Shown piece after piece: positions 9,140 to 18,358 of a stretch of DNA of 64,000 bases (its first letter is position 1; each line of letters begins with the position of its first letter). Source of the stretch: Chloroflexota bacterium (GTDB taxonomy: Bacteria; Chloroflexota; Anaerolineae; Aggregatilineales; Phototrophicaceae); NCBI GenBank assembly GCA_011523515.1, contig WTGO01000088.1, positions 1 to 64,000 of the forward strand. Reading direction: 5' to 3'. The position numbers and the translations under genes were made by a program. The notes beneath the pieces are model-generated. The model did not search any database and was not told where the DNA came from. It saw nothing but the letters and a program-made list of their open reading frames with translations.

Positions 9140-10657
9140 CTAGGGAAAAACTTCCTGCACCCATTGCAGCGGGTCAACATTCACGCCGTTCAGCCAAACT
9201 TCCCAGTGCAGATGAGGCCCGGTGCTGCGCCCGGTCGAGCCTACTGTGCCGATCACCTGTCCCGACGCCACGACATCGCCTAACTGGACCAGCGTCTCTC
9301 GCTGGTGGGCATACAGTGTATATACGCCCCAGCCGTGATCGATGATTGTGGTGTTTCCGCGAATGTGCAGTCTGTCGACCATGACCACCGTGCCATCGGA
9401 CGCGGCAAGCACCGATGTGCCGGGCGCGCCGGCAAAGTCGACCCCGCGGTGATAGCGGTTGTACTCGCCGCCATTATACGAGCGCATGGTTCCGAATACG
9501 GCGTTCATGGCCGCGGCGGCCGGCAAGCTAAGCGAGTTCACCCAGTAGCGATCGGGCGTAAAGCCGCTCATTTGCTCGGTGATTCGCTCGATTTCGGCCT
9601 CTTCAACAGCGGGCGCAAGCAGTTCATTGTTGTTGATGGTGATGGTCTGATAACCGTAGCCGCCGCCTACGACCTGCAAATTTGCGGCGATCTCCACCGC
9701 GGCGCCTGCCCCAATCTGCAGCTGCAGCGTCACAGGATAGATGGCCGTATCAGTGACCATTGGCACGCCGACAATGAAGTTGTGGCGTCGGGCGTCCTCG
9801 CGCTCGATGACGTGAAGCGCCTGCCCGAGGAATTCACCGCTGACGCTGGCTGGTTCGCTGGTTCTCAGCTCGATTCGAACACTGCGCCCGGTCTCCAGCA
9901 CTTGCGGATCGATCGCGAAAGATTCTACTATGTCGGGCAAGTCTTGCGCCAGCCGCGGCAACTGAATGCCCGGGATGATCAGCTGCTGTCCCACGCGCAG
10001 CAGGCCGGGATCCAGCAAATTGTTCTCTCGAGTGATGGCGTCAACTGTCTGGTTGTAACGCAGCGCGATCTCGAAGAGCGTATCGCCGCTCCTCACCGTG
10101 TACAGGAATGGTTCGACCGGGTCGCCATATCGTGACAGTGCGTTGCCGCCGTCACTGAGCGTCTCGGACGCCGACAAGGGTTGAATCTCAGCGCCAGTCT
10201 CGGCCTCGGTAGACGGAATCGTGTTCATAGACGGGTCTGGTTCTGTCTCGCCGGGTACGATCACAAGCTCCTGACCGACATAGATGGCTGCGGCGGATTC
10301 GAGGCTGTTCAGCGATAGCAGTTCCGCTTCGGTTCTGCTGTAGGCGGCAGCAATGCTGGCGAGCGTTTCTCCGGCGGAAACGGTATGCTCCAGCTGTCCA
10401 TCCCAGGCCGCGGTCGACAGCGGAATAATCAGGCGCTGGCCCACAACGATGCTGTTGCTGTCAGTAATGCCGTTGGCTGTCGCCACTTGCTCGGCGAAGA
10501 GGTTATATTGCAGGGCTATTCTGAACAGGTTCTCGCCGCGCTGCACAACGTGAACAGTGAATAGCGAGTCGCGCTGGCCTTGCGCGAGCGAGACGTATGA
10601 CGCAGACAGGAGGCCCGCAAGCAATACAGCCAGAAATCTGAATGCGGCGGATTTCAA
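9140..10657 (-). CDS. Secreted LysM-M23 murein endopeptidase
   Basis: A 505-residue protein with a signal peptide (1-27), three LysM repeats (about 33-80, 89-134 and 185-231), a beta-rich middle and a C-terminal M23 domain (about 400-495). The M23 zinc site is intact: HRGVDFAG supplies His and Asp, and GPHLHWEVW the HxH. It should bind peptidoglycan and cut its peptide cross-links, or activate an amidase in the manner of NlpD/EnvC. The start overlaps the DUF192 stop by 4 bases (ATGA), so it is translated as the last gene of a LysM-DUF192-LysM unit. Confidence 0.92.
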   Translation of the reverse strand: MKSAAFRFLAVLLAGLLSASYVSLAQGQRDSLFTVHVVQRGENLFRIALQYNLFAEQVATANGITDSNSIVVGQRLIIPLSTAAWDGQLEHTVSAGETLASIAAAYSRTEAELLSLNSLESAAAIYVGQELVIVPGETEPDPSMNTIPSTEAETGAEIQPLSASETLSDGGNALSRYGDPVEPFLYTVRSGDTLFEIALRYNQTVDAITRENNLLDPGLLRVGQQLIIPGIQLPRLAQDLPDIVESFAIDPQVLETGRSVRIELRTSEPASVSGEFLGQALHVIEREDARRHNFIVGVPMVTDTAIYPVTLQLQIGAGAAVEIAANLQVVGGGYGYQTITINNNELLAPAVEEAEIERITEQMSGFTPDRYWVNSLSLPAAAAMNAVFGTMRSYNGGEYNRYHRGVDFAGAPGTSVLAASDGTVVMVDRLHIRGNTTIIDHGWGVYTLYAHQRETLVQLGDVVASGQVIGTVGSTGRSTGPHLHWEVWLNGVNVDPLQWVQEVFP

Positions 10658-11031
10658 GAGACTGCCTCTGTTATTCGCAATTGGTCGCCGATTTCCACTC
10701 GCTCGAGGACGCTCGGCTCAGCTTCAAGATAATACATTGCTCGCGCAGCGGGCACATGGGCGAATGTCCACGATTCTGCCAGTTTCTTATCCACTACCCG
10801 GAGCTGCGCGTCGAGCCAAACTACGCCGATTGAAGAGCGAAGGGCCAACGTATGGATGGCCGTCCCGAGCCGACTGGGCGACCCGCGAACAAACAGGGCG
10901 CCTTCATTGATGGACCTTGATCCCTGAAAATTCAGCCCGATCAGCCGAGATACAAAGCTCGCGCAGACACGCGCGCGAGCCAGTACAACTTGTCCCGTTC
11001 GGTCGTTGACAATCAACCGCCGCGAGCTCAT
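10654..11031 (-). CDS. DUF192 family protein
   Basis: A 125-residue protein matching DUF192: RLIGLNF near the start, the IHTLALRSSIGVVWLD strand pair, and a C-terminal YYLEAEPSVLERVEIGD. DUF192 proteins are small beta-barrels of unknown function, often exported. No signal peptide is seen here. It overlaps both neighbours by 4 bases (stop of the LysM gene 11028, start of the M23 gene 10657), so the three genes are tightly coupled. Confidence 0.8.
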   Translation of the reverse strand: MSSRRLIVNDRTGQVVLARARVCASFVSRLIGLNFQGSRSINEGALFVRGSPSRLGTAIHTLALRSSIGVVWLDAQLRVVDKKLAESWTFAHVPAARAMYYLEAEPSVLERVEIGDQLRITEAVS

Positions 11032-12848
11032 CCAGGGATGGTCAAGACTTGTCCAACGCTCAGCTGGTCGTAATTTGTGATGCCGTTGAGTTGCGCCAAC
11101 TCGACGATGCTCACGCCGAAGCGCGCTGCGATACCGTAAAGGGTGTCGCCTGCTTGAACGGTGTAAGTGACCGGCACTGTGGTGGGAAGCGGAGTGGGCG
11201 TTGGCTGCGCCGTCGGCGTCGCTGTATCTACCGCCTGGCCACTCGGCGGGCTGATTGGCGTCCCGGTCGCGCTGGGAATTCTAAGGCGCTGACCAATGAA
11301 TATCGTTCTGGGATTGGTAATCCCGTTGAGCTGCGAGATTGCGGCAACCGTCGTATTGTGGTCGACAGCGATCTGGCTCAAGGTGTCACCCGCCTGTACG
11401 ACATAGATCGTATAAGCGTCGATGGTCGATATTGCGTCGGGCGCGGCTGTCAGCGCCAAAGTCGCTGTCGCTGTTGGTACCAGGGTAGCTGTCGCTGTTG
11501 GCGGTATAGCGGTCGGAATCACCAGAATGTGGCCAACGTCGATTTGGTGGACATTGTTAATATTGTTCTGCTGCGCCAGCAAATCAATAGTCGTACCAAA
11601 CTGTCGAGCGATTCGCTCCAAGGTATCCCCTGGCAGAATCTGGTATGTAATGGGTGTGGCCGTGGGTGTTGGGGTGGGCGTAAAGGTCGGCGTGACGGTC
11701 GCTGTCGCGGTAGCGGTCGCCGCCTGGACGCCCGCAGGTGTTGCCGGCAAGTTGATCGGAATGATTAGCCGCTGTCCAATGTAAATCAAATTAGCCTCGT
11801 TCAAACCGTTTGCCTGGTTGATTGCTTCGCGTGCGCTGCCGTAGTGCAGCGCCAGCTCGCTGACTGTGTCGCCTTCGACTACAACATGCGTGACTGTTTC
11901 GGGAAAATCATCGGTGAACGGTGTAAGTGTGCCATCAGCAGTTGCCGTCGCCGTGCTCGTTGCAGTGGGTTGCGCGGTAGGCGTGGCCGTCTCAGTTGGG
12001 GACGGAGTAGAAGTGTCGGTTGGCGCGACTGTGTTTGTGGCCGTCGGTTTGCCTTCCTGCCCGCCATCATCGGACCGGTCCAGGCTCTCTGTCGCGGTGG
12101 GTGTTTGAGTGGGAGTTGGCGTCTCGGTAGCGCTGCCATCGTTCAACTCGGTATTGGTCTCCGAAGTAGGCGATGCTTCCTCCACGACCGTCGTTTCGCT
12201 GGCCACTTCGAGGACGGCATCGTCAAGATAGATGTAATTGTTGGCCCGCGGCTCGCCCACGGTTGATTCCACAAACACGGTAACGGTCGAACTTGCGGCA
12301 GTCGCTATAACCGCATATTGGCGATAGGCGTCATAAAAGAAAGTAGCGGCCGAGGACCAGATGATATCATCGCTCTCGCCGTCCGTGCCGCCATTGGGGT
12401 CAATGCCCACGCGCACCACCACATCGCCCGGATCCTCGCTGGCATCCGCGTCTTCGAAGCTGGATGACCATACATAGGCATAGATGCTGAAGCGGTATGT
12501 CGTGCCGCTCGCGGCCGAGTCAACCTCTTGGTAGATGCCGCCGTGATGAGTCGCGAACAGCGTAAAGTATTTCTGCGCGCTGCCTTCTTCGTCCAGGCGA
12601 ATCCGGTCAGTTTCCTCATCATAATGAGGGTCATGATTGGCGAACGACGGGCTGGAATCGGACCGGCCCACGTGCCAGGGCGACCAACCCTCGGCCACGT
12701 TGCGGGGATCCGACCCGTCCAATTCGCTGAACTCGCCCTCGAAGTCACCATTTTCCAGCAGGTTCGTCGATTCGCTATCCTGGCCGAAACTGACCTGAAT
12801 TGACAAAAGCAATACCAGCATGAATAAGACAGCGCAACGTAAGTTCAT
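11028..12848 (-). CDS. Secreted four-LysM protein with N-terminal carbohydrate-binding-like module
   Basis: The ATG at 12848 has GGGAGA upstream and begins a clear signal peptide, so the reading from 12893 is too long. The 606-residue protein has a CBM4/9-like jelly-roll region (about 30-216, starting LLENGDFEGEF), a long Thr/Pro/Ala linker (225-318), and four LysM repeats at about 319-365, 401-445, 478-525 and 560-606. The repeats are separated by further Thr-Pro linkers. It should be a cell-wall or surface glycan-binding protein with no catalytic domain. It heads a three-gene unit with DUF192 and the M23 peptidase. Confidence 0.88.
   Translation of the reverse strand: MNLRCAVLFMLVLLLSIQVSFGQDSESTNLLENGDFEGEFSELDGSDPRNVAEGWSPWHVGRSDSSPSFANHDPHYDEETDRIRLDEEGSAQKYFTLFATHHGGIYQEVDSAASGTTYRFSIYAYVWSSSFEDADASEDPGDVVVRVGIDPNGGTDGESDDIIWSSAATFFYDAYRQYAVIATAASSTVTVFVESTVGEPRANNYIYLDDAVLEVASETTVVEEASPTSETNTELNDGSATETPTPTQTPTATESLDRSDDGGQEGKPTATNTVAPTDTSTPSPTETATPTAQPTATSTATATADGTLTPFTDDFPETVTHVVVEGDTVSELALHYGSAREAINQANGLNEANLIYIGQRLIIPINLPATPAGVQAATATATATVTPTFTPTPTPTATPITYQILPGDTLERIARQFGTTIDLLAQQNNINNVHQIDVGHILVIPTAIPPTATATLVPTATATLALTAAPDAISTIDAYTIYVVQAGDTLSQIAVDHNTTVAAISQLNGITNPRTIFIGQRLRIPSATGTPISPPSGQAVDTATPTAQPTPTPLPTTVPVTYTVQAGDTLYGIAARFGVSIVELAQLNGITNYDQLSVGQVLTIPG
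11919..12173 (-). repeat. Low-complexity Thr-Pro linker coding repeats
   Basis: This stretch encodes residues about 226-310 of the LysM protein, an irregular array of short Thr-Pro, Thr-Ala and Ser-Pro units. The DNA shows matching short repeats of the GTCGCTGT and GGCGTT type on the plus strand. Similar shorter arrays occur at 11649-11747 and 11439-11510. They are in-frame linker sequence, not a mobile or CRISPR repeat. Confidence 0.8.
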
Positions 12849-12967
12849 CAGCTTCTCCCGCCGAAGAATCGCATAGTTTATGTTCCCAATCACTACGGTC
12901 TAGTCTACTCAGATTCGAAAAAGCGCACACAGCTATATGCGGCGATTCCCAAATCAGCGATTGTCAC

Positions 12968-15291: not shown

Positions 15292-15873
15292 TCACGACTT
15301 GGCCGGCAGCACCTGATGATGCTGGCGACAGCGCGCCTCGTAGGACTCCTGCGCGCCAACCAGAATCGTCGGGTCGTCATAGGCGGCCGGCTTGCCGTCA
15401 ACCAGCCGTTGCGTCCGGCTGGCGTCTTCGCCGCAAATGACGCAGATCGCGTGCAACTTAATCACTTCCTCGGCGATGCTCAGTAGCTGCGGCATGGGCC
15501 CAAATGGCTCGCCGCGAAAGTCTGTATCCAGCCCGGCTACGATGACGCGCAGCGAATGATCATCGACCAGACGCTGCACCACATCAATCAGCCCCATATC
15601 AAAAAACTGCGCTTCGTCGATGGCGACAACCGTCGCGCCGCCGTCGGCAAGCGCGAGAATTTCGCTCGATGACTCGACTGCTATCGCCTCCACCGACTGA
15701 CCCGTATGGCTGGTGATGCGTTCAATCCCGTAGCGGTCGTCGATTTGCGGCTTGAACACTTTGATGGTCTGTCGCGCGATAATGGCGCGCCGGACACGCC
15801 GGATCAGCTCTTCGGTCTTGCCGCAGAACATGCTGCCGCAGATCACTTCAATGCGCCCGGCGTCGTGTTTCAC
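15292..15873 (-). CDS. tdk: Thymidine kinase
   Basis: Salvage enzyme phosphorylating thymidine or deoxyuridine with ATP (type II thymidine kinase). The 193-residue protein has the P-loop [14 protein letters not shown] (about 13-26), the Walker-B/catalytic segment AIDEAQFF (Glu base), and a C-terminal zinc lobe with [13 protein letters not shown] and a final C..H pair. The start is GTG at 15873, which is a weak site; no better upstream start is open. It follows rpmE, the same order as in many Firmicutes (rpmE-tdk). Confidence 0.94.
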
Positions 15874-15997
15874 AGTGATATGACCTTGTCACTACACGGC
15901 TTGCTGCAATGCAGGCGCGGTCGCGCGGTATAGCCTGGCATACAGAAGAGACCAGCCATTGCAAACGCATGACTGTCCGCTGGGGCGCCGCTTCCGT

Positions 15998-16456
15998 TTA
16001 GTTGCTGAGCTGATATCCCCGGCTGCGCAGCGACTTCTTCATATCGCTGACGACTTTGCGGCCGATGCCCTGTATCGCGAGAATGCTGTTTTCATCGTCT
16101 TCGTCGCCGAGGCGGTCCAAGACATCGGCGACGATGTTGACGCCATTGTCTACCAGGATATTGGTGTAGCGCGCGCTGATGCCCAATTCGATGATCGGCA
16201 GGTCGAGGGGAGTTCGCTCTTCTTCTTCTTTCTCGAGCGTAGTACGAATCTCGTCGCGCTGCTGCAGGCGTTTCATGAACTTGTCGACGCGTCCCTCTGT
16301 GTCGACGATGCGCTGTTCGCCGGTGTAAAAGGGATGACAGTTGGAGCAGATCTCAACCGTGAGCGACTCGACAGTCGAGCCCGTGGTCCAAGTCGTGCCG
16401 CAGGTCATGCAGCGAACCGGAGTTTCATGCCATGCGGGATGAATTGCTTCTTTCAT
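15998..16456 (-). CDS. rpmE: Ribosomal protein L31 fused to an RNA polymerase alpha-CTD-like domain
   Basis: Residues 1-66 are a normal zinc-type L31, with Cys16, Cys19, Cys37 and Cys40 and the [20 protein letters not shown] signature. An acidic helix (67-82) leads to a second domain at 86-152 that L31 normally lacks; the usual length is about 70 residues. That domain follows the RNA polymerase alpha C-terminal domain. [11 protein letters not shown] aligns with the segment holding Arg265 and Asn268 of E. coli alpha (here Arg96 and Asn99). [20 protein letters not shown] aligns with its helix-hairpin-helix (Gly296 and Lys298 become Gly132 and Lys134). The start ATG at 16456 has GGAGGGAA upstream. 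It lies 58 bases after rpmA and precedes tdk. Confidence 0.93.
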
Positions 16457-16469
16457 AATTCCCTCCGCG

Positions 16470-16500
16470 CATTTGCGGCCCCAAAAGGGTGGCGCAAATG
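16470..16500. promoter_or_regulatory. Inverted repeat between rpmA and rpmE
   Basis: CATTTGCG (16470-16477) and CGCAAATG (16493-16500) form an 8-base stem around a 15-base loop that can add a CCC/GGG pair. No U-run follows on either strand, so it is not a standard terminator. Its place just before the rpmE ribosome-binding site makes it a candidate RNA element controlling the L31 fusion gene. Confidence 0.4.
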
Positions 16501-16514
16501 ACTTATGAACAGTG

Positions 16515-16802
16515 CTAGTTTAGGGTCTGTCCCGTCTTTTCGTGGCTGTCGTAGACCGAAACGCGCTTCTGGCCATTGCGACCGCGCATCTTCTCGAAAG
16601 TCACAAAGCCTGGCCGCGTCGCGTAGAGCGTATAGTCCTTGCCCATGCCGACGCCTTCGCCGGGGTGGAAGCGGCTTCCGCGCTGCCGTACGATTATGTT
16701 GCCGGCGATGACATACTCGCCACCGAAATTCTTGACGCCGAGGCGCTTGGAATTGCTGTCGCGGCCATTGCTGGATGAACCGCCGCCTTTTTTATGAGCC
16801 AT
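16515..16802 (-). CDS. rpmA: Ribosomal protein L27 (bL27)
   Basis: A 95-residue L27 with the flexible N-terminal [20 protein letters not shown] reaching toward the peptidyl-transferase centre, followed by [13 protein letters not shown] and [17 protein letters not shown]. The protein starts with MAHKK, so no Prp-type N-terminal cleavage extension (as in Firmicutes L27) is present. It lies 27 bases downstream of rplU, the usual order. Confidence 0.97.
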
Positions 16803-16829
16803 GACAGTTTGCCTCCCCTTAACCTGCGC

Positions 16830-17141
16830 CTAGAGCGAAATATCGTCGATGAGGAGCCGAGTATAATACTGGCGATGCCCCTGCTTGCGTCGATAATTCG
16901 TGCGCTGACGATACTTGTAGACGATGATCTTCTTGCCGCGGAATTGCTCGACTACGGTTGCGCTAACACGCGCGCCTTCCACCAGCGGCTGACCAATTCT
17001 GGTGTCCGCTTCGTCCACGACCAAGAGCACATCCGACAAATCGATCGATTCGCCGACTTCCTGCGGCAGCCGGTCGACGTCGATGGTCGCGCCGACTTCC
17101 GCGCGATATTGCTTTCCGCCGCTGCGGACTATTGCGTACAT
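16830..17141 (-). CDS. rplU: Ribosomal protein L21 (bL21)
   Basis: L21 of 103 residues when started at the ATG at 17141 (MYAIVRSGGKQYR), which is the exact length of the E. coli protein. GGAG 9 bases upstream favours this start over the nearby ATG at 17147 or a TTG at 17156. The C-terminal KKIIVYKYRQRTNYRRKQGH rRNA-binding segment is present. It heads the rplU-rpmA-rpmE-tdk unit from a strong promoter at 17259-17288. Confidence 0.95.
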   Translation of the reverse strand: MYAIVRSGGKQYRAEVGATIDVDRLPQEVGESIDLSDVLLVVDEADTRIGQPLVEGARVSATVVEQFRGKKIIVYKYRQRTNYRRKQGHRQYYTRLLIDDISL

Positions 17142-17258
17142 TGGCATTTTCTCCAATCTTCACTTTGTTTCTCCGCGCTCGAGGCCACTACAGACTCGAT
17201 CCGCGGGGAAAATTGGCGCTACAACAAAAACCCCACTGATACCGGCAGGGCGACAGGA
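17142..17258 (-). promoter_or_regulatory. Structured leader of the rplU-rpmA unit
   Basis: About 110 transcribed bases precede rplU. Reading the minus strand, CCCTG (17250-17246) pairs with CAG-T-GGG (17238-17232) and is followed by five U residues (17230-17226). Further down, CCGCG pairs with CGCGG, enclosing an inner CGAG/CTCG pair. Ribosomal protein operons often carry autoregulatory leaders, and an L21 leader is known in Firmicutes. This one was not matched to it. Confidence 0.4.
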
Positions 17259-17288
17259 ATTATAGAGTATGAGGGAGAGCCGAGTCAA
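17259..17288 (-). promoter_or_regulatory. Strong sigma-70 promoter of the rplU unit
   Basis: On the minus strand, TTGACT (17288-17283), 18 bases, then TATAAT (17264-17259). It has a perfect -10 and five of six -35 bases, one of the best promoter matches in the window. This fits a ribosomal protein operon. Confidence 0.75.
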
Positions 17289-17320
17289 GCGGCAGTTTGA
17301 AGGCTGCTGCGCAGGCGGTT

Positions 17321-18358
17321 TCACACGACAAACATGGCATCGCCAAAAGAATAGAAGCGGTAATCCGCCGCTTTCGCTGTCTCGTACGCCTGTAGCATGG
17401 CTTCCCGGCCCGCAAAGGCGCTCAGCATCATCAGCAGCGTCGACTTGGGCAGGTGAAAATTCGTGACCATCGCGTCGACCGCTCGCCAGCGGTAACCCGG
17501 CGTGATGAAGAGCCTGGTATGGTCAGCGAGGGGAGCGACCGCGCGGTGCTGGTCGCCAGTAGCAGCAGCGCGCTTAGCCGCGGTCTCCAATGTCCGCGCC
17601 GAGGTTGTGCCGACCGCGATCACGCGGCCGCCCGCGCGAATACCGTCGTTTATGATGGTGGCGTTCTCAGTGTCTAGCCGTGCATATTCGCTGTGGATTT
17701 TGTGCTCCTCGACGCGCTCAGCTATCACGGGCTGAAACGTATCCAGGCCAATGTGCAAGGTGCAATACGCGAGCCGGACGCCGTGGTCCTGAATCTTGTC
17801 GAGCAGCTCTCGTGTGAAGTGCAGTCCCGCTGTTGGCGCCGCCGCCGACCCCTCAATAGAGCTGTAAACGGTTTGGTAGCGTTCGCCATCTGTTAGCGCC
17901 GCGCTGATATAGAGCGGCAGCGGCATTTCGCCCTGGTCGCGCAGCAGCGGCTCGACAGGCCGGCTGAATTCAACGACGCGCTGCGCTTTGTCCAGCTCCT
18001 GCACGACCGAGCAGGTGAGATCACTGCCGCTGAATGCAAGTTGCAGGCCCGTCCGGATGTTCCGCCCGCCGATCAGCGCTTCCCAGCGGCGCTCATCCAG
18101 TCGCTTGAGCAGCAGAATCTCGGCGCGACCGCCAGTCTCCGCCTTGCGGGCCTGCAGGCGTGCCGGGATGACCCTCGTATTGTTGAGTACGACGACATCG
18201 TTTGGCAGCAGCATTTCGGCGATGTCAGCGAAAATATGATGCGAAATGGCGCCGGTCGCGCGATCCAGCCGCATCAAGCGCGACGCATCGCGCCGCTCAA
18301 CCGGCGTCTGGGCGATGAAGCGCGGCGGCAGGTCGTAATCGAAGTCGGCGACATTCAT
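17321..18358 (-). CDS. queA: tRNA preQ1(34) S-adenosylmethionine ribosyltransferase-isomerase QueA
   Basis: Transfers and isomerises the ribosyl group of AdoMet onto preQ1 at tRNA position 34, giving epoxyqueuosine. The 345-residue protein has the family N-terminus [19 protein letters not shown], the [11 protein letters not shown] segment, [10 protein letters not shown], and the C-terminal [19 protein letters not shown]. The start overlaps the ruvB stop by 4 bases, a ruvB-queA coupling common in bacteria. No tgt or other queuosine gene is in the window. Confidence 0.97.

Follow-up and report, generated by a model that had tools for sequence, protein, structure and literature searches.

In bacteria, the link between the ribosome and RNA polymerase (RNAP) is credited to few factors, chiefly NusG and NusA, in excerpts of one published account (PMC8116511). 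The same excerpts describe a C-terminal extension of NusA in Mycoplasma pneumoniae that makes contact with ribosomal proteins and couples the ribosome to RNAP. In Escherichia coli, AR2 of NusA binds the C-terminal domain of the RNAP alpha subunit (alpha-CTD), according to an excerpt of PMC12297416. On the ribosome itself, excerpts of PMC9966373 describe how protein bL31 binds the central protuberance of the 50S subunit through its N-domain, while its C-terminal part reaches the head of the 30S subunit, with S13, S19, S14, and helix 41.

We analyzed a 64,000-nucleotide stretch of DNA from a Chloroflexota bacterium of the class Anaerolineae (the window), in which an L31 gene continues into a domain of the alpha-CTD family. 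Searches of the open-licence PMC literature found no account of an L31/alpha-CTD fusion. This fusion is a lineage-specific extension of a ribosomal protein with an unusual donor domain, which has been repeatedly grafted.

Architecture of the extended L31 and identity of its domain

The rpmE-like gene occupies 15998..16456 on the minus strand and encodes, from an ATG, a protein of 152 aa, which agrees with a preliminary description of the locus that had called it a doubled L31. Translation of the plus-strand frame over the same positions gives unrelated sequence. Gene order on the minus strand is rplU, rpmA, rpmE (extended), and tdk, with neighbor names assigned by eye. Upstream lie rplU (bL21; 16830..17156), an ORF that matches the L21 model and has no extension in the window, and the rpmA ORF (bL27; 16515..16802). 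Downstream lies a tdk-like ORF (15292..15873), which by eye encodes a thymidine kinase. This order is kept in related loci: L21 and L27 were both present in 78 of 80, and a tdk match was found in 69. Loci with fewer than 410 bases left on the relevant side account for both upstream misses and for 4 of the 11 without tdk; the other 7 have more. Elsewhere, the window contains two ORFs that by eye carry LysM-like repeats (9140-10657 and 11028-12893), one with an M23-peptidase-like end.

Residues 1-66 of the protein (16259..16456, minus strand) form a zinc-type L31. Pfam family PF01197 (Ribosomal_L31) covers residues 1-64 with 99 bits (cut-off, 27), and NCBIfam L31 equivalogs exceed their cut-offs, NF000612 with 97.4 bits (cut-off, 70). 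Cys16, Cys19, Cys37, and Cys40 are predicted zinc cysteines of the bL31A type. A charged linker (residues 67-84; 16205..16258, minus strand) follows, and the AlphaFold2 model has a single helix over residues 53-81 that includes part of the linker. The linker had been called acidic, which is true of the window (7 acidic and 4 basic residues) but not of the family: across an alignment of 28 relatives (the window and 27 of 29 other fetched loci, leaving out L006 and L026), the net charge of residues 64-84 spans -3 to +4.

The remaining residues (85-152; 16001..16204, minus strand) form a helix-hairpin-helix (HhH) domain. The profile check proposed in the preliminary description supports its assignment to the alpha-CTD family. 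Specifically, PF03118 (RNA_pol_A_CTD) matches residues 76-144 with 28.4 bits against a cut-off of 23.8, so that both Pfam domains of the proposed fusion exceed their thresholds, and a profile search of PDB sequences returned RNAP alpha in 51 of 55 rows. NCBIfam RpoA models also match residues ~61-151 (best E, 1.2e-7), far under their full-length cut-offs. Fold comparison was less discriminating: the predicted structure is compatible with alpha-CTD, but RAD51/Dmc1-type HhH domains tied with alpha-CTD, so that fold does not separate the two. We did not use the name of a generic HhH family (HHH_5, PF14520), because it scored 16.6 bits, below its cut-off of 27, and the PDB profile matches were RNAP alpha. 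The protein has no alpha-NTD, its N-terminal part being L31, and hence is not RpoA. The genome of the window encodes RpoA as a separate, intact gene of 339 aa. In that genome, the PF03118 genes over cut-off are the canonical RpoA and the L31 fusion; a third match, at 12.4 bits, looks like chance, and a search for PF03118 in NusA at E up to 1 gave no match.

The preliminary description had also aligned DNA-contacting residues of E. coli alpha-CTD with R96, N99, G132, K134, and D138, all of which are at the places it gave in the window protein. R96 and N99, the Arg265 and Asn268 equivalents, bound residues 96-99 (16160..16171, minus strand). Residues 130-146 (16019..16069, minus strand) contain the hairpin, with G130, G132, and K134, and a new basic helix, with K140, K141, and R144. 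Two more contact positions are altered in the window, Asn294 being replaced by G130 and Ser299 by V135. The E. coli numbering and list of contacts are those that we take to be established.

A full set of DNA contacts, however, is not what these domains retain. We compared 40 L31 domains of group A, the group of fusions that includes the window (near-duplicates included), with 28 RpoA domains of the class. In RpoA, Arg265, Asn268, Asn294, Gly296, Lys298, Ser299, and Glu302 were kept in 28 of 28. In the L31 domains, the Arg265 position was Arg in 37 and Lys in 3, and Gly296 (39/40), Lys298 (32/40), and Ser299 (32/40) were mostly conserved. Asn268 was kept in only 7 of 40, and Cys269, Asn294, and Glu302 in none, with Gly at 294 in 39 and Asp at 302 in 32. 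Meanwhile, the last helix gained Lys304 (39/40), Lys305 (38/40), and Arg308 (40/40), and the net charge of positions 299-310 was +3.0, compared to -0.25 in RpoA. Judged by these residues, the L31 domain is an altered alpha-CTD whose UP-element contact set is mostly or wholly lost at Asn268, Asn294, and Glu302. This pattern suggests that selection has favored a basic surface for contacts instead of maintaining the UP-element site.

Conservation, distribution, and origins of the fusion

The extended protein recurs well beyond the window. With an E threshold of 1e-3, phmmer found 4654 proteins, of which many are unextended L31; the best 120 were all 152 aa long and 73-100% identical. Counted by hand, a precomputed Pfam column gave PF03118 for ~83 of these 120 and PF01197 alone for 37, which suggests that the domain often falls near or below the PF03118 cut-off in single sequences. 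In a scan with each GTDB species represented by one genome, 401 of 444 pattern matches were relatives with both linker and domain. Among the best 80 of these 401, all titles were Chloroflexota (including Candidatus Aquidulcis, which we take to belong to this phylum), and the L31 part and the domain shared a single open frame of 153-164 codons in 80 of 80. Cultured carriers among these 80 include Bellilinea caldifistulae, Anaerolinea thermolimosa, and Leptolinea tardivitalis; further ones are Longilinea arvoryzae, Levilinea saccharolytica, and Thermanaerothrix daxensis. A complete Leptolinea genome (AP024710.1) carries the fusion as well. This protein is genuine and lineage-wide, a bL31 with its C-terminal helix prolonged into an arm that bears an HhH domain of the alpha-CTD family.

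The codons of the extension look to be under purifying selection. We calculated dN/dS for 8 genes of the window's family (28 pairs, of which 24, 19, and 20 were usable for the extension, L31 body, and linker, respectively; 2 of 9 fetched loci were left out). Median values were 0.30 for the extension, 0.105 for the L31 body, and 0.48 for the linker, which are rough because dS was high (median, 1.3-1.4).

A search of Chloroflexota L31 sequences, as the preliminary description had proposed, located the extension in the class Anaerolineae. In a phylum sample of 400 genomes, matches reached residue 145 or beyond in at least 40 of the 55 genomes of the class; among the matches listed (E to ~3e-21), none went beyond residue 108 in the 345 genomes outside it. 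In a class sample of 298 genomes, at least 95 had matches reaching position 135 or beyond of 149 (both samples counted by hand), and two thirds had no L31 fusion among the matches listed. The window's genome gave two matches in this search, the second of unspecified place. Within the window's order, all 21 sampled genomes carried the fusion. Other families have different ends on L31: an Ala/Lys-rich tail in the three inspected genomes of family f109, and a short acidic tail in the one inspected genome of f11. An assembled L31 may be absent altogether from two genomes (G498 and G515). Three fused L31 proteins (L033, L213, and L214) lack the zinc cysteines and retain the extra domain.

By family, the fused genomes fall into group A (75, including the window), group B (19, from families f106, f125, and f129), and group C (1, G469). 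In the 12 of 19 group B proteins that were read, the linker is different, and the basic Lys-Lys-Arg (K-K-R) helix is absent, as it is from the G469 domain; no single face is therefore common to all L31 fusions.

The G469 fusion carries most of the case for more than one origin. Its domain is 82% identical to an alpha-CTD repeat of NusA that lies ~2.4 kb away on the same contig (C87), with agreement at 52 of 64 residues and 162 of 192 bases, the same base agreement as between the two alpha-CTD repeats of NusA itself. At this locus (L246:1119-4490), nusA is divergent from rplU, rpmE, and tdk. In G445, a relative from the same family, L31 is 84% identical and ends as a 100-codon frame without the domain; in a third family member, L31 was sought and not found. 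By this sequence comparison, the G469 fusion is a recent and independent event, its most likely donor was NusA, and the module evidently passed from NusA to L31. Together, the near-copy of NusA and the unfused relative indicate that L31 fusions arose more than once.

Group B's position in an RpoB tree (29 genomes, quick method, G128 left out) adds to this case more weakly. Group B formed its own clade (support, 100), and a branch with support of 96 that includes unfused genomes parted it from group A. Three unfused genomes were nested within the clade of group A and would imply losses; both several gains and one gain followed by losses fit the tree. For the domains themselves, we dropped identical sequences and those with fewer than 45 aligned columns, leaving 127, and built a tree from 72 (24 of 52 group A L31, 18 of 39 RpoA, 6 of 12 sigma, and all others). 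Groups A, B, and C stood apart, although with 60 columns an AU test did not reject a single clade of all L31 domains (P = 0.233). In group A, 10 of 52 L31 domains were closer to the best NusA domain than to the best RpoA domain.

Alpha-CTD-type domains on other proteins

Two further ribosomal proteins carry the domain in other Anaerolineae lineages. We checked seven bS16 proteins with a C-terminal PF03118 domain (L263, L265, L266, L270, L272, L274, and L275), six over the Pfam cut-off and one at 18.3 bits, and three bL21 fusions (L262, L271, and L273; Pfam). Full-length matches gave bS16 fusions in 6 of 150 class genomes, to which G128 and G495 add domains beyond a longer linker, and bL21 fusions in 3 of 150. 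None of these eight genomes was among the at least 95 with a listed L31 fusion. The counts leave out several matches that extend past the ribosomal part, for example in G475, G372, G493, and G434 (bS16) and G064 (bL21). On inspection, bS16 of G144 had an Ala-rich tail and no domain. A second bS16 gene in the window's genome (L281, contig C50) continues through a Pro-rich linker to an end rich in cysteine, for which Pfam gave no name at E 0.01.

The transcription machinery of the class carries such domains as well. They are found at the C terminus of NusA (L149 and L246 by Pfam; L145, L146, and L147 by eye or motif) and as an insertion in the beta' subunit (L150 by Pfam; L155 by eye or motif). 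In long proteins with sigma region 4, there are two to approximately seven repeats (L143 and L144 by Pfam, where HARE-HTH is also present; L247 and L248 by eye). Other occurrences include a domain joined to a helix-turn-helix protein (L264; Pfam) and one inside a deoxynucleoside kinase (L267; Pfam); by eye, a membrane protein that resembles glycosyltransferases (L279) has three copies. Each of three frames of 84-86 codons (L276, L277, and L278) holds a single HhH/alpha-CTD-like domain that scores weakly, below the Pfam cut-off.

Possible roles and comparison with known systems

The preliminary description had suggested that the fusion could link ribosomes to DNA or RNAP or autoregulate its own operon, an interpretation that our analysis supports in part. 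We tentatively propose that the L31 domain acts from the ribosome as a tethered arm to which nucleic acid or partners in transcription would dock, a reading that falls just short of what we would call probable. Because bL31 elsewhere extends from the central protuberance of the 50S subunit to the head of the 30S subunit, ending near S14 and 16S helix 41, the extended arm would emerge from the ribosome at this head. At that site, the kept hairpin, the Arg265 equivalent, and the new K-K-R helix could grip nucleic acid, either the DNA or the RNA of a transcription complex nearby. Alternatively, the partner might be an RNAP-bound protein, such as NusA or alpha-CTD. In either case, docking would keep ribosomes near transcription. 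In support of this role, the domain belongs to the alpha-CTD family by Pfam and PDB profile search, has a compatible fold, appears to be under purifying selection, and has a near-invariant basic helix. Its listing in one class, with all 21 sampled genomes of the window's order, the near-copy of a NusA repeat in G469 beside the unfused L31 of G445, the module's presence on other ribosomal and transcription proteins, and the published accounts of bL31 and NusA cited above also speak for it. Counting against it are the contact residues mostly or wholly lost (Asn268, Asn294, and Glu302), the missing K-K-R helix in group B and G469, the two thirds of the sampled class without a listed fusion, and the three unfused genomes within group A. 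The kinase (L267) and glycosyltransferase-like (L279) carriers have no evident link to coupling, and the NusA of the window's genome has no PF03118 match.

The same basic helix could serve the ribosome alone. The domain may pack against the 16S rRNA in the head of the 30S subunit, or else against the central protuberance, and reinforce the B1b bridge, in which case alpha-CTD ancestry merely supplied a handy fold for binding nucleic acid. We regard this as possible but rather unlikely. In its favor, Lys304, Lys305, and Arg308 are near-invariant in group A (39, 38, and 40 of 40) while UP-element residues are lost, and the domain is also fused to bS16 and bL21, whose sole common trait is rRNA binding. 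Excerpts of PMC9966373 also report that the C terminus of E. coli bL31 contacts 16S helix 41 and that the final eight residues are important for the association of the subunits. However, the long and variable linker (dN/dS, 0.48) better suits a tether, and NusA, the donor in G469 and itself a carrier, is no rRNA clamp, nor is beta'. The positions of bS16 and bL21 on the ribosome differ from that of bL31, which makes a single fixed geometry toward RNAP unlikely and speaks for either a flexible tether or generic gripping of rRNA.

Neutral accretion, in which alpha-CTD-like modules are easily copied and are tolerated at the ends of ribosomal proteins with little function, is improbable. The module does occur on a deoxynucleoside kinase and a helix-turn-helix protein with no evident link, the unfused genomes nested in group A point to losses, and two fused groups lack the basic helix. 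Nevertheless, the domain is conserved over at least 80 named loci and in 21 of 21 sampled genomes of the window's order, its codons look to be under purifying selection, and the Arg308 equivalent is present in 40 of 40. Still less probable is autoregulation, by which free L31 would use the domain to bind its own rplU-rpmA-rpmE operon, as DNA or as mRNA. The order of that operon is conserved, and in excerpts of PMC10931766 E. coli bL31 represses its own mRNA. Yet the repressing part described there is the N-terminal segment, window positions 15700-17500 contain no Rfam leader, and the fusions of bS16 and bL21 would each require a different target. Finally, the chance of a frameshift or chimera joining two genes, which the preliminary description had raised against itself, is negligible because at least 80 named Chloroflexota loci, several from cultured strains, carry the fusion, as does the complete genome AP024710.1, the 152-aa length is common to the best 120 of 4654 homologues, and the window's genome has a separate, intact RpoA.

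With docking as the preferred role, the repeated grafting suggests that selection has favored tethering the machines of gene expression through a common docking module, and that L31 is no isolated oddity. The Anaerolineae might even have a coupling system of their own, in which alpha-CTD modules on bL31 (or bS16 and bL21 elsewhere), NusA, and beta' would serve as complementary docking elements that keep translating ribosomes attached to the transcription complex or its DNA; we consider this larger scheme somewhat unlikely. In any event, one bacterial class moved a polymerase-type domain onto the ribosome more than once, and its grafting onto ribosomal and transcription proteins alike hints at an unrecognized tie between the making of RNA and the making of protein. 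Should the domain have retained binding to DNA, RNA, or RNAP, coupling would have a new mode that can be tested; binding to rRNA would instead make it a case of ribosomes recruiting a transcription domain. Cultured carrier strains make an experimental test practical.

Among described systems, zinc-type bL31 shares with the fused protein its Pfam and NCBIfam L31 matches, its four cysteines, and its position after rplU and rpmA, but the fused protein is about twice as long, with a long helix and a second domain. That domain resembles RNAP alpha-CTD (PF03118) in its profile match, its best PDB profile rows, and its compatible fold, and L31 domains mostly keep the Arg265, Gly296, Lys298, and Ser299 equivalents. 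In contrast to alpha-CTD, it is not on the alpha subunit, it has a new K-K-R helix, and Asn268, Cys269, Asn294, and Glu302 are mostly or wholly changed, with Val for Ser299 also in the window. Alphaproteobacterial bL21 probably carries an HhH extension. It would be a parallel on a ribosomal protein, although the protein and phylum are different; searches of the open-licence PMC literature found no account of it. Proteins of the same class that combine HARE-HTH or sigma region 4 with alpha-CTD repeats likewise use PF03118 as a module outside RpoA, but they are not ribosomal, and the L31 domains group elsewhere in the tree. NusA offers a further parallel: in this class it also ends in alpha-CTD-type domains, one of which has a near-copy on L31. 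In the excerpted accounts of E. coli AR2 (PMC12297416) and of the M. pneumoniae NusA extension (PMC8116511), by comparison, the extension is carried by the transcription factor and not by the ribosome.
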